Of a stretch of DNA of 64,000 nucleotides, positions 7,042-22,034 are shown in pieces; positions within the stretch are counted from its first letter, which is position 1; each line of letters starts with the position of its first letter. The stretch spans positions 124,001 through 188,000 of the forward strand of contig JAROBA010000001.1 in the NCBI GenBank assembly GCA_029432815.1, in the 5' to 3' direction. Both the position numbers and the translations under genes were made by a program. A model generated the notes under the pieces. It did no database searches. It was not told the origin of the DNA and was given only the letters and a program-made list of their open reading frames with translations. The stretch comes from Pontiellaceae bacterium B1224 (GTDB lineage Bacteria > Verrucomicrobiota > Kiritimatiellia > Kiritimatiellales > Pontiellaceae).

Positions 7042-8424
7042 CTATTCCAAAGGCTGGAAATTTTTCAGGCATAAGAAACCGCCTTGTTTCAGCAAAATTT
7101 CCTGAAGTTTACCGACATCCACATCCCCGACAGCAGCCCCGTCTTGTACCGCGATCGCTGCCGCAATACCGCCGGCCTGACCCACAGCCCCCATCGTCGG
7201 AGTCGTGCGAATGCCCGCCTGTGCCTCGAAATCAACCGAGATGCACCGGCCCACTGTAATCATATTGCTGATCTGGTCGTTCACGAGGCAGCGGTAGGGA
7301 ATATTGCAGAACGTGCCCCACTCCGGCTTCACATGGTCAGTGCCCTCGCCGTCCGGACTGTGAATATCAATCGGATAGCCGGTGTGTGCAATCGTGTCTG
7401 GAAAAGATTTACGTTCGACTACATCCTGCCCGGTCAACGTATAGCGCCCTTTGATCTGCCGGGAACTGCGCACCCCGATCTGCGGGCCCGTATAAACCAG
7501 CACCGAATTTCCAAACCCTGGAATATATTTTTTCAGAAAACGGTCCACCTCCAGCGCCTGCTTCCGGCCCTCCATCTCCGCCAGACTCAGACTCCACGGA
7601 TCATTCGCATCATAGCCCAGAATGCGCGTCGTATTCACAATCACTTCCCCGCGCGTATTCGCTTCAAAAAATAGAATATCCTCACGCGGAAACGTAAAGT
7701 CGCCCGCTTCGCGCCCCTTCGCCAGCGATTTCACAAAGCCGCCGATCGAGATGCGCGATGCTTTATCGATTTTATTCACATCCCCTTCCAACCTTGGGAA
7801 CTCGTCCGGATTGTTTTTGATGTAGTCGCGCACCTCCTGAATATCGACATTCATCATGCGCATTTTCATGGTCATCGGCTGACACGCCCCATCCGACTCG
7901 CGGCCCTTGGTGCATTTAACGCCGGCATGCATGGCCAAATCGGCATCACCCGTCGCATCAATAAAAACCTTCGCCCGTAGCTGGCTCAAACCGGCCTTTG
8001 TGCAAATGGTGATGGCCGAGATTTTATTTCCATCCGTTTGCACGGAAGCCAGCATCGCGTGATAGAGCAGTTCGCCGCCCGCTTCCGTAAGCATCAGCTC
8101 CAACTCCATCTTCATGCCTTCCACATCGAACGGAGTGACGGTGTAAGTGAAGCCGGTCGTATCATAAATATGCCCCGGCGACCGACCCTTCTTTTCCAGC
8201 CGATCAATCAGTTCGCCGGTCGTACCCTGGATCACCTGCTCATCGCCGGCATGGAACGTCATCATCGGCCCAACGCCCGCCGCCGTCAGCATACCGCCTA
8301 GAAAACCATATTGCTCCACCACCAGCGTTTTGGCACCGGCCCGCGCCGCTCCAATCGCCGCCATGGCACCGGAAATTCCGCCGCCCACCACAATCACATC
8401 GTACATTTTATGTGGTTCACTCAT
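7042..8424 (-). CDS. FAD-dependent oxidoreductase (FAD_oxidored/PF12831 type), copy 1
   Basis: 460 residues. The Rossmann dinucleotide motif is VVGGGISGAMAAIGAARAG near the start, followed by LVVEQYGFLGGMLTAAG. The family signature 'FIDATGDADLAMHAG' and a C-terminal 'GRCISVDFEAQAGIRTTPTMGAVGQAGGIAAA' complete the FAD fold. It is close to the protein at 17344-18705 along its whole length (by eye at least four in five residues). No signal peptide, so it is cytoplasmic. The substrate is unknown; its place at the end of a saccharide operon suggests a released sugar or uronate. The C-terminus carries an extra tail ending FQPLE that copy 2 lacks, and that tail encodes a one-mismatch copy of the window-wide palindrome. 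Confidence 0.85.
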   Translation of the reverse strand: MSEPHKMYDVIVVGGGISGAMAAIGAARAGAKTLVVEQYGFLGGMLTAAGVGPMMTFHAGDEQVIQGTTGELIDRLEKKGRSPGHIYDTTGFTYTVTPFDVEGMKMELELMLTEAGGELLYHAMLASVQTDGNKISAITICTKAGLSQLRAKVFIDATGDADLAMHAGVKCTKGRESDGACQPMTMKMRMMNVDIQEVRDYIKNNPDEFPRLEGDVNKIDKASRISIGGFVKSLAKGREAGDFTFPREDILFFEANTRGEVIVNTTRILGYDANDPWSLSLAEMEGRKQALEVDRFLKKYIPGFGNSVLVYTGPQIGVRSSRQIKGRYTLTGQDVVERKSFPDTIAHTGYPIDIHSPDGEGTDHVKPEWGTFCNIPYRCLVNDQISNMITVGRCISVDFEAQAGIRTTPTMGAVGQAGGIAAAIAVQDGAAVGDVDVGKLQEILLKQGGFLCLKNFQPLE

Positions 8425-8451
8425 CGGTACTCCTCTAATTACTTCCAGAAT

Positions 8452-8550
8452 CTAAAGCCCCAGCGCTTTAATGATAACCGGGCTTACCACAGCCGCTTTA
8501 CCCTACTCTTTGGAGTGAATCGTGTCGGGCATATAGCACTTATTTAAGGG
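8452..8550 (-). pseudogene. Relic of an SGNH hydrolase gene (C-terminal end only)
   Basis: Read on the minus strand, this stretch gives KCYMPDTIHSKE, a stop, then GKAAVVSPVIIKALGL and a stop. This aligns with the C-terminus of the intact SGNH hydrolase at 18721-19515 (KRYVPDSIHPGAEG, NAAVVMPALLDGLGI), including the catalytic Asp-x-x-His. The reading frame upstream closes at a stop near 8554. It sits just before FAD oxidoreductase copy 1, exactly as the intact SGNH gene sits before copy 2, so it is the remains of a duplicated gene pair. Confidence 0.8.
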
Positions 8551-8573
8551 ACTTCAAACTGTGGTTCGACAAA

Positions 8574-8647
8574 GTGGGACAGTGCTTCCAGCCTGTCTAC
8601 GACAGTGCGGCCATGCAGAAGCAGACAGGCTGGAAGCACTGTCCTAC
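8574..8647. repeat. Large REP-like inverted repeat
   Basis: Two 25-base arms (8574-8598 and 8623-8647) are complementary at 24 positions, with a 24-base loop. The arm core is GACAGTGCTTCCAGCCTGTC. It lies in the gap between the esterase and the SGNH relic. A diverged copy is at 25347-25412. The form is that of a REP/small palindromic mobile unit rather than a terminator, since no T-run follows. Confidence 0.7.
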
Positions 8648-8693
8648 ATATAAGAATGCGATATCAAATCATCCAAAATTTCATATTGCCACC

Positions 8694-9503
8694 CTATTTC
8701 TGAAATCGCTGGTCTATAAAATGGATCTGCCGCTGAACCGCATCATTCCAATAGGCCCAGGTATGACCGCCCGGCATCTCGGTATAACCATGCTTAATCC
8801 CGGCCTCCAACAGTTGTTGATGCAGTGCCCGGTTCACACCGACAAAAAAGTCCTCAGAGCCGCAGTCGATCGAAATGGCCAGATCACCATCCTTCAACAC
8901 CTTGGCCTGATTGATAACCGTATAGTGCTCCCAGTTTTCCGGATGGGTCTCTAACTCGCCGATCCGCTTTTTTATATCCCACTTCCCGGGAAACGGTCGA
9001 ATATCCACACCGCCGCTGAGCGGTACCGCAACGCTGAACACATCGGGGTGGCGAATGGCCAGAAAGAGGGATCCATGCCCACCCATACTGTTCCCGCACA
9101 GCGCGCGATAGGTTCGCTGCGCTTTAGTGCGATAGTTCTGATCCATGTGTGCAACACACTCTTTCGCCACAAAGGTTTCATATTGATACGACGGATCGAT
9201 GGGACTGTCGAAATACCAGCTGGTTCGGCCGCCATCCGGGCAGACCATGATCATGCCATAGGTGTCGGCCAGCTGTTCAACGACGGTTTTATCGATCCAT
9301 TTACGGTGCGTGTCCCCCGCTCCGTGCAACAGATATAAAACCGGATACCTCGCTGACCCGTCCTGATAATCATCCGGAAGAATGACACTCACAGGAATGT
9401 CCCGCCCCATCTTTTCACTCTGAACGGTGATCGTCCCCACCGTCGACGCCTGACTGGTTGAAACAACCAGTGCGGTCAAAAACAAACTAAACCTGTTTTT
9501 CAT
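8694..9503 (-). CDS. Secreted carbohydrate esterase of the esterase D / CE1-like family
   Basis: The ATG at 9503 is chosen because it opens a signal peptide (MKNRFSLFLTALVVSTSQAS) and GGAG lies upstream. Longer versions overlap the previous gene. The 269-residue alpha/beta hydrolase has Ser139 in GNSMGG, Asp218 in DCGSEDFF and His247 in PGGHTW, a complete triad. The oxyanion region is LLHGAGD. Related enzymes remove acetyl or feruloyl groups from polysaccharides. Here it follows a heparinase-like lyase in the same operon, so deacylation of the same glycan is the likely job. Substrate not determinable. Confidence 0.85.
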   Translation of the reverse strand: MKNRFSLFLTALVVSTSQASTVGTITVQSEKMGRDIPVSVILPDDYQDGSARYPVLYLLHGAGDTHRKWIDKTVVEQLADTYGMIMVCPDGGRTSWYFDSPIDPSYQYETFVAKECVAHMDQNYRTKAQRTYRALCGNSMGGHGSLFLAIRHPDVFSVAVPLSGGVDIRPFPGKWDIKKRIGELETHPENWEHYTVINQAKVLKDGDLAISIDCGSEDFFVGVNRALHQQLLEAGIKHGYTEMPGGHTWAYWNDAVQRQIHFIDQRFQK

Positions 9504-9567
9504 TTTACTCACACTCCAACTTATCAACGCACGCCCCGGAGGACTGTGCCACATGAACGGTGCTCGT

Positions 9568-12500
9568 TTAATCCTGATGAACCTCTTCTTGAACCAACTG
9601 CCCATGTTCATATTTCTGTATGACCGCGTTGAACCCTCGGCCTTTTTCCAAACCTTGGAAACTGATTTTATCCGTTCGGCCGTCTTTCAATTCCACCGTC
9701 ACTTCGTTGGCCGACTGAGCCGTGACGGATTCAACCACGCTTTCTTTTTCAAACGGCTCAATCACCGTCAGAAACCGCGCTCCGTTTCCGGTGGTTCGGA
9801 AGCTGAGCGATTTTCTACGCCAGGTTTCGTCGCCAAACGGATAGTCGCCACCGACGCTGGCCTTAAAGCGCACCGCGTTCAGGCCGGACAGATCAAGCGT
9901 GATCCTTCCATCCTGCTCCGACTTCATCGGATTTGCAGGAACCGACTGATCAAACAGTTTTCCAGCAATCTTCACCGGGCCACCGTAATAATCTTTTCCA
10001 ATGGTTGGAACTTCGGCGATCTGGTCGTAGTTCAATTCAAGGTCGCTCAGTTTCACCTCAGCTCCGTCGGCGGTCACGATGACTGGGTTACCCCAGAAGA
10101 GCGTTTTCGGCGCGTTGGATTTAAATTCGGCTTTCGTGGTTAGCGTCAGCGTTTCCAATCCCTGGATATTTACATCGATTTCATCGCGACCCAGCACCCA
10201 TGCGCCGAATTTTCCTTCGGCCAAAAGCTGATCGTCGCCCGTCACCGAATACCAGAACTTGCGGCTTTCGTTATGCTGCTCCGGCAGGGTTCCGATCATC
10301 ACTTCCCGGTCTTTCGGCCAAGCGGAATAGACATCCATTTTCAGCACACCATCTTTGCCATAAATACGCGTTCCGGCATTATCGGCGTCTTTCCCGAACT
10401 GCGTTTCAAAGCTGACCTTCGCGGTACCCTTCGGCTCGTACCAATTGCAATCCGTAATCACCTGGGCCGACAACACCGGATCGGGATTCATCTGCTCCGT
10501 GTGACGCACCGGTTCACGGCCCTCCTCGGCTTCCAATGATTGGAACCCTTTAATATTAAAGAGGCAGTCGAACGTATGCTGTTCGGGCGAGTCCAGATAG
10601 TCAGCTAGCACGATGTAGTCATCCGTCACCGCCAGCAGTCGACGTTGCGTAACGCGCTCTGAGTATGGCCCCGGCACGCCCCACTTCGGCTCGTTTTCCG
10701 GCACCGGCATATAGCGCCCTTCCTCCCAACACTTTTCCTGGCAGGTATCGCCGGTAAACCACGGATAGTTGATACCCCCGTAAGGCGGAGCCGACCAGCG
10801 GGCTTTGGTTTCCACCGCTGTCACCTGCATGATTTCATTGGTGCTGAAAAAAAGCTTCGTGCTCTCCACAGCTTCCTGCTGCTTCATATCGACCACGACC
10901 ATATTATGCGGTAGCGAGCTCTGCACAAAGAAGGCATACATGAAAGCGGGATAGCCCTGCCAAACGTGTTCCGGGTTGTAAAAACTCCGACCGTACCGCA
11001 TCAGCGAATTGAGCGCTGTACGGTCGAAGTGACCGTGATAACCGCCGTGCGTCCCATATTTCAGCACCGCCTGTATTTTTTCGCGCGGCTCGGCGGCATT
11101 CGAACGCAGCATCGCTGCGCCGACATTATCCGAAAAGGCTGAGCCTTCACCCAGGGTTGGCGTATCTTCCGGCAGCTCTGGCACACCATAGATCAGATCA
11201 CGCGTTCCGGAGCTTTTGATGATGGACCCGTATTTCGGATCACCATACGCAAAGTAGGCGATCTCATAATAGTTATGTGTAAAGCGATTTTCCACCGCGT
11301 CATTGTTGGCAAACATAACTCCCGCATAATCAATGTACGGGAGCATCGCATTCCACATATCCTGAATCTTCACATACGGCTTATAAACGGGGCCCCATTT
11401 CTGGAACGGTTTTCCGTAGATATATTGTTTCCGCTTTTCGGCATCGACCGGAAAGATGCTGTACTCCTTGGAATAGCTGGCCGGGAATGCGGCGTGTAGA
11501 TAGTCAACGCCCCACGGTTGCAGCGCCAAGGCGAGCTGAGTGAATTCGCTCGATACCCAACCGTTGTATCCGATGGCACATTCGTACCACCAACCATCGG
11601 CCATAATGCCATTGCTGACCTGATCCAGAAATCCGCCCGGCCCTTCGATAAAACGCTCGGCCGCCGCGAGGTCCTGGATCGCCAGCGCGCAATAGACCGC
11701 GCCGCACAACTGCGCCACTTCCCAGTTGCCGGTGATGCCCTGACTGATGCTCTGATTGATTACCTTGAAATACAGCCGGAAGGTGGCTGCGATGTTTTTA
11801 TGATCCTGTTCGGTCAACACACCGGAGTTATAAATCGTGTCATACGCCCAGGCCGCATTCTGAAAGAACACGCCTTCCTGAACCAGACTGCCACTGCTCG
11901 CCTGCAGTGTTTTCGGATAGCCCGTTTCCGGATCGGCGAGTCGCCGCAAAAACAGCGCGACCTTTTCCGCGTATTGTTCCTCGCCGGTCAATTGCCAGGC
12001 CAACGCCGTTTCATACGCTCTTTTCACACCGCCCTGCGGAATCAGGTAGACACTGTTACTCGTCCGCGAAATTTTGGTTTGATTAATCTCCGGCACCTTC
12101 CAATCATTGGAAGTCTGGATTATTTTCGCGGCTTCCTTCTTTGCCCATTCGACGGTTGCCGCCTTTTCACGCACGGCGTCCCAGCCTGCCTGCGAATGAA
12201 TGAGGTACGGGTGCGGCAGAACCGCCGCGGTAATGAATTCAATCTCCCCAACCGCATTGCCATTGGCCATCGCCTGAATGGTTTGCGTTTCACGCCCGCC
12301 CGGCGCCACGCGTTCGGAAACGTTTACCGTGACGCTACAGTCCTGAACCTCGCCCGGTTGCAAAATAAATTCCGAGGGGTGGATAGTGGTCTCCATCACT
12401 TCACGACCGCGCACGGATTGCGACAGCGTTACGACCTGCGGATCATCCGTGCAGTTTTCAACCAGCAGGTCATACACCACGGTTTCGCCGCCTTTCGCAG

Positions 12501-14866: not shown

Positions 14867-17341
14867 CTATTGTCGCCAGGCTTCCAGCTTATAAAACAGG
14901 TTAGTATCTGTCCCGTTGACAGGAATGGCGATCAGCAATTCCCCGCCATTTCCGGCAAGAACATCGGATGCATTTTTCCATGCCGGTTCCGTTAGACTCC
15001 CTGATGATAACAATTGATAGTTATGCCCGAGTCCGGAGTTTTCAACCGACACGGAAAGTTGTTGCCCGCCTTCTCCGTCGCTGCCGAACACTACTTCTCC
15101 CATAACCACATCACCGGGATTCATCGGTGCCGATGGCACGGCCATCACTTCCAGCGAGTTCGTACTTTCGACCCCGTCATAAAGAGCACTCACTACATAA
15201 TAATAGTTCGTTCCCGCCAACAGGCCGGTATCGCTGTGAACGGTCGTAGAAGGACTGAACACCATCGTATCGTATGGACCACCGCTGTTCGTGGAACGTT
15301 TTAAAACATATACTGAAGCTCCCACGGTTGCTGCCCACATTAAATTAAGTTGTGAAGCGGATTCAGGAGCTGCGGATAATCCATGGGGTGCGACAACCGG
15401 AACCGTCCCTGTTGCATCTTCGCTGATCGTTATACTGTCCAGCTCATAGGCTCCACCCGAAATATGAATACGCATGCTCTGCACGCCCTGATTCAGGGTA
15501 ATGTTCTGCGCCACGGTATAGGTTGTCCAATTGTTTCCAGTGGTTGGAAGAATGACATCGCCGGTCACATCCGATCCGCCAAACGAAAAGCGAACCGTGC
15601 CCTCAGAATCTCCGGCATAGCGCACTGCCAGTTTATATTTTCCAGTGGTTGGAACATGTACCGTATAGCTCACCCATTCGCCATTCTGCAGATCGGTCAG
15701 GGCATATCCGCCCTCCGAACAGACGGCAATATCAACGTCTTCATCGGGACGGTATTCACCGCCGTAATTTCCAGCGGTCGTATCGTTGTAGGTTCGTCCG
15801 TTTTGATCCACCGGTGAATAGTCAAAATTCTCTGCTTGGATGGTTCCCGGCAAATCATTCATGGAATACATCGGTAGTCCATTCGCATCAAAACCCCGGA
15901 TCGGATCACCATAACAAAAATCCGGGCGCCGATAGGTCAGGCCCCCGTAACCGAGATAGGAGCCGTTTCCACTGGCCGGTTTGGTTTCATAGTTACCGCT
16001 CATCTGGATGGCCGTATCGCGAGCTCGAAGCGTCCATTTTGCTTCTTCTTCGGTTTTCAATCCGCGCCCCACATAATGTCCGACGTTCAGCTCCCAGCAA
16101 GCCACTTCATCATAGCGATCCCGATAGATTCGGGTCGGGTCCGCATTGTACAGCGGCGTGATTGCCAACGAATAGGTTCTTCCCGTCCGGTCGAACTGCT
16201 GCAGAAATTCGCCGGATGCTGCCGTGGGCGTCCATTCCGTCGGTTGATCGGGATAGGAATGAACATAGGACACGCAATAGCGGTTGTGATATTCCGAGCC
16301 TAATAAAATGCGCGAGTCGGCTTCGCCCCAGAGATTCTCCCCCTGACTCCAGGCCATTTCGCTCATGCCACCGAGCATGTGCATGCCCCACCACGTATGC
16401 CACAGATCGCGAGAGCTTTCCTGTGCCTGGCCGGTCTCCCAGATATAGTTGGTCAGCACCCCATTGAAGCCATAATCCTCAATGTCGTAACCGATGGTGT
16501 AGTTATAGGAGATGCGATATCCGTCGTTGCTAATTTCGCTGCCCGTGGTGTGCGGTCCGGAAGAATACGGCAGATCGTCCGAACGGTGCGGCAGGCCTTT
16601 GGCATAGCGCAGAGCACGGTCGTAGATGATTTCATTATCGAGGAAAATTCCTAACGCCATACAGACGCGCATTGCGCTGATTTCCTGGTTACCGGCTCGT
16701 ACGTAGTCGAACAAGTACGCCCGCCAATAAAAGGTCCCCTCGGTATCATAGGTCGCAGGAACCTCGGTATTCGAATACCCGGGATAGACGAGCATCGCCT
16801 TAAACCGATCGATATCTTCTGTCGACCATCCTGAATAGGTGCTTTTAATAATTTCGGCCGCTTCAATGATCTGATAGCCGATACTACTCGTCAGCGCCCG
16901 CGTTCCCGTATGCCCCATATACGTTAAGCCAGTCCATGCATTGAAAATTTCTACGGCCTTATCCGCATACCGGCTGTCGCCTTCGATGTACCAGCGCAAG
17001 GTGTTGTAGTAGGCGGCCCGACTGTCGCTTTCAAATGCACTCAGATTGGTTTTCGGGGCATCCCGGAGCAACACCGTCATATTGGTATTGCCCTGTACCG
17101 TGTAATTATAACTCGCCTTTGATTCCGCAGCCATCGTTTGGTACGACGTGTACCAGGGGTCAATCTGCGCTTCGACCATCGCTTTCATCCGATCCAAATC
17201 AGAACGCTTGTGCGACAAGCCCGGATGAACAAAAGTCGCATTCTCGGAAACCGCTCCCTCGGCCACGAAGACCAGCGCACTCAGGGCCCAAATACACTCA
17301 GCCACCCACATTCCAACCCATTTAATTTTCATCTGATGCAC
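14867..17341 (-). CDS. Modular secreted lyase-like enzyme: alginate-lyase-type toroid, CBM6-like, Fn3, C-terminal module
   Basis: 824 residues with an N-terminal signal. About 40-490 is an alpha-toroid like the alginate lyase/heparinase superfamily (HPGLSHKRSDLDRMKAMV, SIGYQIIEAAEIIKS, YDIEDYGFNGVLTNYIWETG). A CBM6-like domain starts near 501 (GTIQAENFDYSP...DLQNGEWVSYTVHVPTTGKYKL). An Fn3 domain follows (about 655-740, NYYYVVSALYDG). The final 75 residues (SGLGHNYQLLSSGSL...LFYKLEAWRQ) match the tail of the beta-helix protein at 43981-46284 very closely. The substrate is probably an acidic polysaccharide. The exact lyase family is uncertain. Confidence 0.75.
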   Translation of the reverse strand: MHQMKIKWVGMWVAECIWALSALVFVAEGAVSENATFVHPGLSHKRSDLDRMKAMVEAQIDPWYTSYQTMAAESKASYNYTVQGNTNMTVLLRDAPKTNLSAFESDSRAAYYNTLRWYIEGDSRYADKAVEIFNAWTGLTYMGHTGTRALTSSIGYQIIEAAEIIKSTYSGWSTEDIDRFKAMLVYPGYSNTEVPATYDTEGTFYWRAYLFDYVRAGNQEISAMRVCMALGIFLDNEIIYDRALRYAKGLPHRSDDLPYSSGPHTTGSEISNDGYRISYNYTIGYDIEDYGFNGVLTNYIWETGQAQESSRDLWHTWWGMHMLGGMSEMAWSQGENLWGEADSRILLGSEYHNRYCVSYVHSYPDQPTEWTPTAASGEFLQQFDRTGRTYSLAITPLYNADPTRIYRDRYDEVACWELNVGHYVGRGLKTEEEAKWTLRARDTAIQMSGNYETKPASGNGSYLGYGGLTYRRPDFCYGDPIRGFDANGLPMYSMNDLPGTIQAENFDYSPVDQNGRTYNDTTAGNYGGEYRPDEDVDIAVCSEGGYALTDLQNGEWVSYTVHVPTTGKYKLAVRYAGDSEGTVRFSFGGSDVTGDVILPTTGNNWTTYTVAQNITLNQGVQSMRIHISGGAYELDSITISEDATGTVPVVAPHGLSAAPESASQLNLMWAATVGASVYVLKRSTNSGGPYDTMVFSPSTTVHSDTGLLAGTNYYYVVSALYDGVESTNSLEVMAVPSAPMNPGDVVMGEVVFGSDGEGGQQLSVSVENSGLGHNYQLLSSGSLTEPAWKNASDVLAGNGGELLIAIPVNGTDTNLFYKLEAWRQ

Positions 17342-17343
17342 TC

Positions 17344-18705
17344 CTATGCCAGAAAGCTGCCCTGCTTCAATAACTCTGCCCGAAGCTGCTCCGTATCCAC
17401 AGAACCGACGGCCCTATTTTTCAGAGCGGCCATTGCTGCAGCAATGCCTCCGGCCTGTCCGACCGCGCCCATCGTCGGCGTGGTACGGATCGCCCCCTGC
17501 GCCTCGAAGTCGACCGAGATGCAGCGGCCGACCGTTACCATATTGGTGATCTGACCGTTGATCAGGCAACCGTATGGAATATTACAGAAGCTGCCCCATT
17601 CCGGCCGAACATACTCAACAAAGGAGGTCCCTTTCGGATCGTGGATATCTACCGGATAGCCGGTATGGGCAATGGTGTCCGGGAACTTCTTACGGGCATA
17701 AACATCTTCTGCCGTCAGGGTGTAGATTCCCTTGATCTGGCGGGAACTCCGCACCCCGATCTGCGGACCGGTGTAAACCAGCACCGACTTTTCAAAACCG
17801 GGAATATATTTCTTCAGGAAACGGTCCACCTCTAACGCCTGTCGACGCCCTTCCATTTCCGCCAGACTGAAGCTCCACGGATCGTTGGCGTCATAGCCGA
17901 GGATGCGCGTCGTATTAACAATCACTTCTCCTTCGGTATTTGCTTCAAAAAACAAAATTCCGTCGCGCGGCAAGGTGAAGTCTCCGGCCTCTTTTCCTTT
18001 GGCCAGCTTTTTAACAAATCCACCAATTGAAAGACGCGGGGCTCTATCAATCTGACTGACCTCCCCTTCCAAATGCGGAAATTCGTCTGGATTATCCTTA
18101 ATGTACGCACGCACCTTCTGTATATCCACGTTCATCATGCGCATCTTCATCGTCATGGGCTGACAGGCCCCATCAGACTCACGCCCCTTCGTACACGCCA
18201 CACCGGCATGGAAAGCCAGATCCGCATCGCCGGTTGCATCAACAAATACGTTCGCAGTCAGTTTCATCAACCCCGCTTTGGTGCAGACCGTGATGGACTT
18301 GATTTTCCCTGCATCTGATTCCACCGAGGCCAGCATCGCATGATAGAGCGGTTCGCCACCGGCTTCGGTCAGCATCAATTCCAGTTCCCGCTTCATGCCC
18401 TCCACATCAAATGGCGTTACGGTATAGGTGAAACCGGTCGTATCAAAAATATGCCCCGGCGACTGACCCTTCCCTTCAAGCCGATCAATCAGCTCACCCG
18501 TCGTTCCCTGGATGACCTGTTGATCACCCGCATGAAAGGTCATCATCGGACCCACGCCAGCTGCGGTCAGCATGCCGCCCAGAAAGCCATACTGTTCCAC
18601 CACCAGCGTTTTTGCGCCCGTACGGGCCGCACCAATCGCCGCCATCGCGCCGGAAATTCCGCCGCCCACGACAATGACATCATACGTTCTGTTTTCACTA
18701 CTCAT
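17344..18705 (-). CDS. FAD-dependent oxidoreductase (FAD_oxidored/PF12831 type), copy 2
   Basis: 453 residues and nearly collinear with the protein at 7042-8424: VVGGGISGAMAAIGAARTG, FVDATGDADLAFHAG and GRCISVDFEAQGAIRTTPTMGAVGQAGG are all retained. It is cytoplasmic and of unknown substrate. Its start lies 15 bases after the SGNH hydrolase stop and its stop two bases before the next gene, so it is firmly inside the operon. Keeping two intact copies while the second SGNH copy decayed suggests the oxidoreductases now differ in substrate or expression. Confidence 0.85.
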   Translation of the reverse strand: MSSENRTYDVIVVGGGISGAMAAIGAARTGAKTLVVEQYGFLGGMLTAAGVGPMMTFHAGDQQVIQGTTGELIDRLEGKGQSPGHIFDTTGFTYTVTPFDVEGMKRELELMLTEAGGEPLYHAMLASVESDAGKIKSITVCTKAGLMKLTANVFVDATGDADLAFHAGVACTKGRESDGACQPMTMKMRMMNVDIQKVRAYIKDNPDEFPHLEGEVSQIDRAPRLSIGGFVKKLAKGKEAGDFTLPRDGILFFEANTEGEVIVNTTRILGYDANDPWSFSLAEMEGRRQALEVDRFLKKYIPGFEKSVLVYTGPQIGVRSSRQIKGIYTLTAEDVYARKKFPDTIAHTGYPVDIHDPKGTSFVEYVRPEWGSFCNIPYGCLINGQITNMVTVGRCISVDFEAQGAIRTTPTMGAVGQAGGIAAAMAALKNRAVGSVDTEQLRAELLKQGSFLA

Positions 18706-18720
18706 TCAAAATCCCTTTGT

Positions 18721-19515
18721 TCATTCGTTTGCATCTAAAATATTTTCTGCAATCCCCAACCCATCCAATAGAGCCGGCATCACCACCGCCGCATTGCCTT
18801 CCGCCCCGGGATGAATCGAATCCGGCACATAGCGCTTAAACTGATCCGCATCATTCGTCTGCAGTGCGATCCAACTGGCATAATGATCGATCAGCAAAAA
18901 CCCGTGCTCACGGGCGAAGGTGCGATACATCGCGTAATAATCTTGGATATTTTTTCGATAGGATCGGTGCCCCGGTTCATATTTATCGCCGGGCGTCATC
19001 GTCATCAAAATGATTTCACACTCCGGATACGCCGCGAGGGTCTGCTCTACAATAGTCGTCAGGTTGGATTGAGCATCGGCCACGGAAAGATCAAAGCGCT
19101 CCACACAATCGTTGATTCCATATTCGATAAATAGCGTGTCCGGTTTTTTATCGATTACGAGGCGATTAAAATGGGCCACGCCATAGTCGGAGTTTTTACC
19201 GGATGCCCCGCTATTCAACACTGTCGCCAATCCTGGATAATTAGTCGTCAACACCTCGGCCAGCATGTCCACCCAGGCCCCGTTGTCCGTCAGGCTGGTG
19301 CCCAACGCCACCACCGTTTGCGCACGCCCAGCGTCCAAATTACGCACCAGTTGACTTTTTTTCCGCTCTTTCTTCGAACCCATCATCTGATCAACTTCAC
19401 TGGAAAACGGTTTCGTCATCCCCCTTGAATCTCCTTTCAAGCTAGGATCGGAATCGAACGACAAACCGAACGCAGCCGTGCACCCCATCAAAATGAATCC
19501 TAAACACTGCTTCAT
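18721..19515 (-). CDS. Secreted SGNH/GDSL hydrolase
   Basis: The ATG at 19515 opens a signal peptide (MKQCLGFILMGCTAAFG). All four SGNH blocks are present in 264 residues: Ser74 in GTSLTDNG, Gly in NSGASGKN (about 102-107), Asn135 in GIND, and Asp232/His235 in DSIHPGAEG. SGNH enzymes in saccharide loci usually remove O-acetyl groups. Upstream of the start lie two copies of the TTCCAA palindrome family 37 bases apart, and part of one overlaps the ribosome-binding region. A relic of a second copy is at 8452-8550. Confidence 0.85.
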   Translation of the reverse strand: MKQCLGFILMGCTAAFGLSFDSDPSLKGDSRGMTKPFSSEVDQMMGSKKERKKSQLVRNLDAGRAQTVVALGTSLTDNGAWVDMLAEVLTTNYPGLATVLNSGASGKNSDYGVAHFNRLVIDKKPDTLFIEYGINDCVERFDLSVADAQSNLTTIVEQTLAAYPECEIILMTMTPGDKYEPGHRSYRKNIQDYYAMYRTFAREHGFLLIDHYASWIALQTNDADQFKRYVPDSIHPGAEGNAAVVMPALLDGLGIAENILDANE

Positions 19516-19521
19516 AAAATT

Positions 19522-19573
19522 TTCCAACCCTTGGGATGAATCTAACCTCGCCATAGCTTTCCAACCTTTGGAA
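19522..19573. repeat. Pair of TTCCAANNNTTGGAA-type palindromes before the SGNH gene
   Basis: One near-exact copy (19522-19536, TTCCAACCCTTGGGA) and one exact copy (19559-19573, TTCCAACCTTTGGAA) are spaced 37 bases apart, about 3.5 helical turns, just upstream of the SGNH start. This is the tightest intergenic pair in the window. Confidence 0.8.
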
Positions 19574-19670: not shown

Positions 19671-22034
19671 TTATTCAACACCGATCGAATAGAAAACCGC
19701 TCCAGCACCACTGACCGTTCCCGTGTATGAGGTTTCAGTTGGAAGTCCTGTAATACCCGACGCCTCAACGGTCGGCGTTCCATTCACCAGATCGCTTGAG
19801 GTCATAATGCTATAGCTCTTACCCTCCACGGATTTCCAATCGAGTGTATAGGAGCCGCCATCCACAGCATACGCATTGATTTCCAACACCGAACTCCCAT
19901 TGGTTGGAACGGTTCCCGCCACATATTCTTCCCAGCTCAACAGGCCGTCCCCATCGTTATCCACGTCATCGTCTGCTTCAGTCAGCCCATAATCCAGCAG
20001 CCAGTTGATCGGTGTTCCATTCGATGTTGTTCCGGCATTGGCCGTAACACGAAGGGTATCGTTGGTGCCATTGCTGTCGGTATCGACAAATGCAAAACTC
20101 CAGAGGTCGGTATCAACGCCCGGCGCCAACGCCAAGCCATTATCCTCATAGGTACCGCCAAATGTCATCACATCGAACGAGCCATAGTTGGTTACACCGG
20201 TCATCCAACCGATGTCCAGAATCGTTCCGCTCTCAAAAACTACATCGGCAAGGCCAACTCGCTCTGCCCCGTTATCATTCCCACCCTCGCTGATATTGAT
20301 CGGGGTGACGCCGCCCTCATCGACGGTAATCTTAAGTGTGCTGCCTTCATTCTGATGCCAGAATCCGTCAAAATCAGAACGGGTAGATCCCAGGTCAATC
20401 AGGGAAGCTCCACTTCCATTCACATGGAAGGTTCCAACACCGCTGGCATTGCCAAGAGCCGCCCCAATGAGAGTTTTCAACTCTCCTCCCGACACATGCA
20501 CTGTACCGCTTCCGCCATTCACACCGCCAATCCACAGGCTCGCACGCCCATCGGTTCCCAATCCCGCACTGGCAATACGACCGGACAGCAACAAAGAGCC
20601 GCCGTTCAGGTTAATGCTACCGCTTGCGCCGCTCTCCCCCAGCTCGGTGGCATAGAGATCAATATTTCCGCCATTCACATTCAGGGTCCCATCTCCATCG
20701 GGGGAGTTCCAGCCAACATAGGAGGACCGTGCCGAGCCGCTAGGTTTTGGAAGGATCAGGTCACCTGAATTAAAGTTTACGATACCCGTGCGCCCTTGAC
20801 CGATATACAGCCTCATCTGACCCGCATTAGGAAGACCATCGAACGTACATTCGGAAACAAAACCGGAATCATTTACCGTAGCGTGACCAACATAGATGGA
20901 GTCGTCTTCATAGACCCCCCAGGTTGCGGCCGTTCCTGCCAAATCCTGGTTCCAGTTTGCCGCGTTGGTAGCATTCATATCGCTCCCGTTTCCTGTCCAA
21001 TACAGGGTTCGCGGACCGGATGGCGGAGGATTGGTCGGAGCAATGCTCGTATCACCAATGCCATAGGTCACTCGCAATGCGTTGTTGGTAAATGCAAAGC
21101 TCCAGTTATTCGTGTCCGTATTGATCAGCGCAAGGCCGTTATCGGTGACAACCGTATTCGTCGGGAAGGTGATCAAGTCCCATGAATTGGTTACATCCCC
21201 CATGTCGTCCCCACTGAATCCAAGCTGAAGCGTGGCACCATACTGGAACGTGACATAAGGCGTCTCGTTAGAGCCCCCCAGAATATTGATCTGCCCCAGA
21301 GAAAACCCATTGTCACTATCGACCGTGGCCGAAAGTGTGCCGAATTCACCCTGATCCCAGAAACCTCCGGCCGCATCATCCACGCCGCCGACATGGCCCA
21401 CTCCATCGCCAAATACGTTAAATGTACCCGCGCCTTCTGTAGATCCGCTGATCGTCACACCACGCAATGTTTCCAGAGTACCGCCGGTTAGATTGAATGT
21501 TCCCGTTCCCGCGTTTGCCAAAAACAGACTAGATCCACCTCCGGAATTGACCATCCTCAGCGTACCGCCGCTCAGATTGTAGGTCCCTTCGGACCCCGCA
21601 CCGTTTCCGAGCGTCAAATAGTTCAATCCAAGCAGACCACCGCTTTGATTGACGGTTCCTACCCCGCCGGAATTACCAATCCGGTCATTAAGATTCCTAT
21701 CGTAATCAACCGACAGGTTCGCTCCATCTACTACATTTAGCTCGCCAACGGTGGAGGTGTCATACGCCACACGGAAAACCAATGCAGTTTCAGTGGTGCT
21801 TAGCGTCGGAAGGTTTCCCGGAGCGGCGTTGATGTATGCCACATCAGTAACCCATGGAACCAAATTAGTTGTTGTATCCCCTCTGCGGTCGATCGTCCAG
21901 TTGCCCGCATCGTGCCAGTTCGTACTGACCGACCCGTTCCAATAAAAATAAGGTGCGGCCTGCGCAGCTGTTGCACCGAAGAGCGCAAGTGTGAGAGCCA
22001 GTCCAGCCCCTCTTTGCATTTTCTTTTTTTTCAT
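19671..22034 (-). CDS. Large secreted repeat protein (autotransporter-associated beta-strand type) with internal duplication
   Basis: 787 residues, signal peptide (LALTLALFGATAAQAA). Two homologous halves each begin with a W-G..-W---NW block (FYWNGSVSTNWHDAGNWT; LYWTGNGSDMNATNAANW) and continue with GT(Y/F)N(L/V)-GG beta repeats. They resemble PATR-type (autotransporter-associated) beta strands, but no C-terminal beta-barrel is present. Near 700 is an EF-hand-like calcium loop (DDVDNDGDGLLSWEEY). The last 75 residues are the shared C-terminal module ending FYSIGVE. AGGAGC precedes the start. Likely a cell-surface or released scaffold or glycan-binding protein; no enzymatic motif seen. Confidence 0.75.
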   Translation of the reverse strand: MKKKKMQRGAGLALTLALFGATAAQAAPYFYWNGSVSTNWHDAGNWTIDRRGDTTTNLVPWVTDVAYINAAPGNLPTLSTTETALVFRVAYDTSTVGELNVVDGANLSVDYDRNLNDRIGNSGGVGTVNQSGGLLGLNYLTLGNGAGSEGTYNLSGGTLRMVNSGGGSSLFLANAGTGTFNLTGGTLETLRGVTISGSTEGAGTFNVFGDGVGHVGGVDDAAGGFWDQGEFGTLSATVDSDNGFSLGQINILGGSNETPYVTFQYGATLQLGFSGDDMGDVTNSWDLITFPTNTVVTDNGLALINTDTNNWSFAFTNNALRVTYGIGDTSIAPTNPPPSGPRTLYWTGNGSDMNATNAANWNQDLAGTAATWGVYEDDSIYVGHATVNDSGFVSECTFDGLPNAGQMRLYIGQGRTGIVNFNSGDLILPKPSGSARSSYVGWNSPDGDGTLNVNGGNIDLYATELGESGASGSINLNGGSLLLSGRIASAGLGTDGRASLWIGGVNGGSGTVHVSGGELKTLIGAALGNASGVGTFHVNGSGASLIDLGSTRSDFDGFWHQNEGSTLKITVDEGGVTPINISEGGNDNGAERVGLADVVFESGTILDIGWMTGVTNYGSFDVMTFGGTYEDNGLALAPGVDTDLWSFAFVDTDSNGTNDTLRVTANAGTTSNGTPINWLLDYGLTEADDDVDNDGDGLLSWEEYVAGTVPTNGSSVLEINAYAVDGGSYTLDWKSVEGKSYSIMTSSDLVNGTPTVEASGITGLPTETSYTGTVSGAGAVFYSIGVE

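Follow-up and report, generated by a model that had tools for sequence, protein, structure and literature searches.

The window, by which we mean the whole analysed stretch of 64,000 nucleotides, derives from a Kiritimatiellota genome of the Pontiella group, a marine polysaccharide degrader. On its minus strand lies a polysaccharide-degradation operon in which a LacI regulator and repeat-type surface proteins are followed by an intact SGNH hydrolase gene (SGNH2), a gene for a FAD-dependent oxidoreductase (FAD2), and a gene for an alginate-lyase-like protein with a CBM. The order continues with a sodium-solute symporter, a large lyase-like protein, an esterase, a short SGNH-like remnant that we term the stub, and another FAD-dependent oxidoreductase gene (FAD1). 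The names of operon proteins that lack an assignment were inferred from context. The intact SGNH protein scores 87.7 bits against PF13472, and it is the one full-length member of its family found in its own genome (E 1e-12). The features relevant to this analysis are as follows.

7042-8424, minus strand: FAD1, FAD-dependent oxidoreductase (PF12831), syntenic ortholog of a single gene in three relatives
8453-8530, minus strand: probable 3ˊ stub of a lost SGNH (GDSL-type) hydrolase gene, reading PDTIHSKE-stop-GKAAVVSPVIIKALGL, with an Asp-x-x-His block and an in-frame TAG; the similarity may reach 8541
8531-8547, plus strand: probable right terminal inverted repeat of a miniature element, matching GAATGGCACTAAGTTAA at 12 of 17 positions; abuts or overlaps the stub start
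8541-8674, no strand assigned: dispersed repeat unit with a hairpin core, 84-85% identical to a second copy on contig C130 of the same genome
8574-8647, no strand assigned: REP doublet or REPIN, formed by two inverted GTAG-tagged REP sequences; 25-nt arms and a 24-nt spacer
8694-9611, minus strand: esterase (PF00756), the upstream neighbour, whose stop codon abuts the repeat element
14867-17341, minus strand: alginate-lyase-like protein with CBM6/35, downstream of FAD2; its B12219 homolog directly follows an SGNH gene
17344-18705, minus strand: FAD2, second FAD-dependent oxidoreductase, 81% identical to FAD1 in amino acids
18721-19554, minus strand: intact SGNH hydrolase (PF13472), upstream of FAD2; likely start at 19515

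SGNH homology upstream of FAD1

Read on the minus strand from 8541 to 8455, the DNA encodes the frame KCYMPDTIHSKE-stop-GKAAVVSPVIIKALGL, which the first-pass annotation had matched to the C-terminus of the intact SGNH hydrolase. The nucleotide alignment that it proposed as a check bears out this match. Positions 8541-8453 give an ungapped alignment with the 3ˊ end of the gene at 18721-19554, in which 59 of 88 nucleotides are identical (67%), and the local score of 30 compares with a maximum of 18 in 500 mononucleotide shuffles and with about 14 for the next best alignment in the window. At the protein level, tblastn gives 48% identity over 29 amino acids of the SGNH C-terminus. After trimming of the first bases, which possibly belong to the adjacent repeat, 47 of 75 nucleotides are identical, compared to a maximum of 35 in 20,000 shuffles. 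In addition, a profile that combined the window SGNH with six homologues from relatives (seven sequences in total) was run on all six frames of the window and found only the intact gene and the stub at significant levels, with an E-value of 8.5e-4 for the stub and 8.5 for the next match. The view that this SGNH copy is gone apart from its 3ˊ end holds within the window.

The stub shares the conserved C-terminal Asp-x-x-His block of the SGNH/GDSL hydrolases (PF13472) from polysaccharide-utilisation loci, which reads PDTIH in the stub and PDSIH in the intact protein. Unlike these hydrolases, it is truncated, interrupted by a stop, and not a gene. Only the last 26-29 codons are represented, a complete frame that includes the GDS, Gly, and Asn blocks is missing, and the TAG occupies a position that holds a codon in the SGNH family. 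The 3ˊ end of the stub is located about 30 bp upstream of the FAD1 start. Because the probable right end of the neighbouring element extends into the beginning of the SGNH alignment, the residues KCYM may derive from the terminal repeat at 8531-8547 rather than from an SGNH gene.

The repeat at the break

The hairpin that the first-pass annotation placed next to the break is present at 8574-8647. Its 25-nt arms are 96% complementary, and the corresponding RNA has a predicted folding energy of −54.4 kcal/mol (z −8.5). The hairpin consists of two REP units, GTAGGACAGTGCTTCCAGCCTGTC at 8647-8624 and GTGGGACAGTGCTTCCAGCCTGTC at 8574-8597, which are arranged head to head with GTAG at their outer ends, one of these tags having decayed to GTGG. 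A copy on contig C130 matches 8538-8674 at 84% and ends at the stub start, and thus the repeat extends beyond the hairpin. The repeat gives approximately 20 matches in its own genome (both strands counted) and up to 47 in one relative, and it is widespread in the order.

GTAG REPs have been reported for the PVC superphylum, where they also occur as gene-interrupting units, most often in O. terrae (PMC3733652), and REP doublets have been described as mobile units (PMC3116915). The window repeat resembles these REPs and REPINs in its outer GTAG, palindromic body, head-to-head dimer, 24-nt spacer, and intergenic dispersal. It differs in that many copies in relatives are carried inside a larger element with IS4-type ends, and in that the repeat is absent from the vicinity of all 20 tyrosine-transposase loci examined (zero of eight in its own genome, which has 11 Y1_Tnp matches, and zero of 12 in relatives). 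A different family of GTAG palindromes (GTAGCCGAGGTC..GACCTCG) was observed around a tyrosine-transposase match in genome G000 (contig C111, 65.4-66.2 kb; L095 1877-2650). These palindromes and the tyrosine transposase of the same genome are likely a matched REP-transposase pair.

Several relatives carry the REP doublet within an element that has GAATGGCACTAAGTTAA ends, and such ends form inverted pairs approximately 130-230 bp apart at places in genomes G027, G002, G003, and G005. A 1.6-kb element in relative G004 (L109 1501-3016) is flanked by these ends as well and encodes a DDE transposase with an IS4-like N-terminus that falls under the Pfam cut-off. In Pontiellaceae B12219, a fragment of a related transposase terminates at a motif of this type. 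In the window, the match at 8531-8547 is reached in 32 of 5000 shuffles, and the left terminus at 8678-8694 (10 of 17) is not significant. The paired inverted ends in relatives, common to the 1.6-kb transposase element, are like those of MITEs derived from an IS4-type insertion sequence. However, the window copy is much decayed, is bordered by the probable deletion, and has a single recognisable end, and its own genome has no close transposase. The element fills nearly all of the space between the esterase stop codon and the stub. REP doublets that travel inside a MITE would constitute a composite of two element types.

The two FAD genes and their SGNH neighbours

The first-pass annotation proposed that the decayed SGNH gene exposes the duplication of an SGNH-FAD pair, with each SGNH sequence directly upstream of a near-identical FAD oxidoreductase. 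The adjacency, the decayed SGNH sequence upstream of FAD1, and the repeat at the break all stand, but near-identity does not, and a duplication of the pair, though possible, would be old. Although FAD1 and FAD2 are 81% identical in amino acids, they share 75.4% of their nucleotides and 51% of third codon positions, a divergence of the size seen when FAD genes are compared across species of the genus. The B12219 gene is a closer match to FAD1 than FAD2 is (87% in amino acids, and 80.6% in nucleotides compared to 75.4% for FAD2), and the amino acid identities of FAD1 to the genes of relatives G004 and G016 are 83.5% and 81%, respectively. No near-identical tract indicative of gene conversion between FAD1 and FAD2 was found in 150-nt windows. 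Five-gene FAD trees, built from protein and codon alignments and evaluated by AU tests, give no resolution and do not place FAD2. A constraint that groups FAD1 with FAD2 lowers the log-likelihood by 4.1 units with protein (p-AU 0.144) and by 3.3 with DNA (p-AU 0.324), so that a sister relationship of the two is neither supported nor rejected by these sequences.

Pontiellaceae B12219 and B12227 are among the relatives that carry the FAD gene. Of the two window copies, FAD1 is the one in synteny, since the FAD genes of B12219 and G004 lie in the same gene run after the same large protein; that of B12219 also follows the same esterase. The gene order around the FAD gene differs in every relative. 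A search of related genomes for the full SGNH gene, which the first-pass annotation had suggested, found none at the FAD1 position in the three relatives with the FAD gene, and none of them has kept the pair. Likewise, tblastn, nucleotide alignment, and profile searches found no SGNH traces upstream of the FAD genes of B12219, G004, and G016. At the esterase-FAD junction, B12219 carries a different SGNH-fold esterase (SASA), which was rejected as a source of the stub because its nucleotides align to those of the stub no better than expected by chance.

The closest SGNH sequence to the intact copy is its ortholog in B12219 (70%), which is located directly upstream of the alginate-lyase-like homolog with no FAD gene between them. 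Because of this arrangement, the placement of SGNH2 appears to predate, or to be independent of, its adjacency to FAD2, unless B12219 has lost FAD2. Over the 75-nt region noted above, the stub matches SGNH2 at 47 positions and the B12219 SGNH at 46, whereas the latter two match each other at 57. The stub is therefore not a recent copy of SGNH2, although a decayed sequence of such length cannot be given a firm phylogenetic placement.

Some further differences among these genomes were observed. On contig C1 of B12219 (L043 2358-7562), the alginate-lyase-like protein is N-terminally fused to a repeat domain resembling the window protein at 19671-22034, and the SGNH protein of B12219 bears an N-terminal Golvesin_C domain; both features are missing from the window copies. 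A beta-helix protein frame in G016 (L024 7396-9120) has a start whose first 22 residues are 77% identical to that of the window sodium-solute symporter, which is a second sign of junction shuffling in these operons.

If there was any duplication of an SGNH-FAD pair, it would be older than the split from B12219, given the divergence of FAD1 from FAD2 and the closer relationship of FAD1 to the B12219 gene. Such an old duplication is plausible, if short of probable. After it, the FAD1 locus of the window species would have lost its SGNH gene, and B12219 would have lost both FAD2 and the SGNH gene of the FAD1 locus. The presence of an SGNH sequence upstream of both FAD copies, the between-species distance of the two FAD genes, and the near equidistance of the stub from SGNH2 and the B12219 SGNH are consistent with this history. 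However, it requires several independent losses, with the pair kept in zero of three relatives, and the FAD tree leaves FAD2 without a position.

About as likely is a separate assembly of the two neighbourhoods, because the SGNH gene of B12219 already stands before the same alginate lyase, with no FAD gene in between. By this account, FAD2, perhaps acquired by transfer from a different lineage, was inserted where an SGNH gene and the alginate lyase already adjoined, the SGNH gene beside FAD1 came independently, and the pairs arose twice as both enzymes share a substrate. The recurrence of SGNH-FAD adjacency in distant genomes makes this plausible, and the differing surroundings of the FAD gene among the relatives are also in its favour. 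Conversely, the appearance of the same order twice within one operon would be a coincidence, and B12219 may simply have lost FAD2.

The remaining explanations fare less well. That the second SGNH was never whole, and that a moving FAD copy took along approximately 90 bp of its upstream SGNH neighbour, would account for the presence of the 3ˊ end alone, but it is improbable. FAD1 keeps the position behind the lyase and esterase genes that its orthologs have in relatives and is hence not the mover, and the cut coincides with the edge of the repeat. A recent duplication of the pair in the window species, as first proposed, draws on the location of both neighbourhoods in one operon 10 kb apart, and yet we consider it highly improbable because it is contradicted by the divergence values given above, barring a strong mutational acceleration of FAD2. 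Least credible of all is a chance similarity in an intergenic spacer, to which the shortness of the stretch and its perhaps repeat-derived first bases might point, since no shuffle (zero of 500 and zero of 20,000) reaches the stub score, the profile separates the stub from the next match by four orders of magnitude, and the strand and the distance upstream of FAD1 are correct.

Probable gene loss and a recurrent gene association

The segment at 8453-8530, possibly extending to 8541, is most likely what is left, at the 3ˊ end, of a GDSL-type SGNH esterase gene formerly located in the polysaccharide-degradation operon between FAD1 and the esterase. In this reading, the remainder of the gene was deleted, and one end of the deletion falls at the edge of the miniature mobile element, which bears the GTAG-type REP doublet. 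The stub homology, the absence of the remainder, and the presence of the repeat at the break are observed directly, and we infer that the gene was formerly complete. What counts against the loss of a full gene is the shortness of the stub, the lack of a full SGNH gene at the FAD1 position in the genomes searched, where B12219 has the SASA esterase, and the unrecognisable left end of the element. An SGNH gene at this position is plausible, because the operon also contains an intact SGNH-FAD pair, and the two genes lie side by side in two distant genomes as well. Presumably, the element inserted in or beside the SGNH gene, after which a deletion extending from the element left only the last codons. 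This deletion might have been caused by the insertion itself or by recombination at the element. Its position ahead of the FAD1 ribosome-binding site may explain why the stub persists. The lost gene was probably dispensable, as the intact SGNH gene and other esterases remain in the operon.

Among the FAD homologs examined in the wider phylum, two distant members have an SGNH sequence beside the PF12831 FAD gene, in opposite orders (L104 8700-10820; L049 6049-9479). In genome G171, an SGNH gene (PF13472, strong profile score) starts 6 bp after the FAD gene, whereas in G192 the end of a beta-helix-SGNH fusion overlaps the FAD start by 4 bp. Because the adjacency recurs in these genomes, the association appears to be meaningful and fits a functional link. 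The FAD enzyme yields only short matches in the PDB, located at the nucleotide-binding end, and nothing over the cut-offs in NCBIfam, and therefore its substrate cannot be named. A literature search for this FAD family in polysaccharide loci returned nothing. A speculative and rather doubtful extension is that, in the polysaccharide loci of Verrucomicrobiota and Kiritimatiellota, this PF12831 subfamily and the SGNH esterase together make up a module of two enzymes. Such a module would have been assembled repeatedly, as SGNH-FAD, as FAD-SGNH, and as a beta-helix-SGNH fusion followed by FAD, and its enzymes might act in sequence on one substituted algal sugar outside any described pathway.

The proposed recent duplication is thus corrected to ordinary gene turnover and erosion of an operon, in which a gene stub ends at a miniature mobile element. 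Of more use may be the by-product of this analysis, namely that SGNH esterases recur beside an uncharacterised family of FAD oxidoreductases, which suggests a linked and testable function for the two enzymes.
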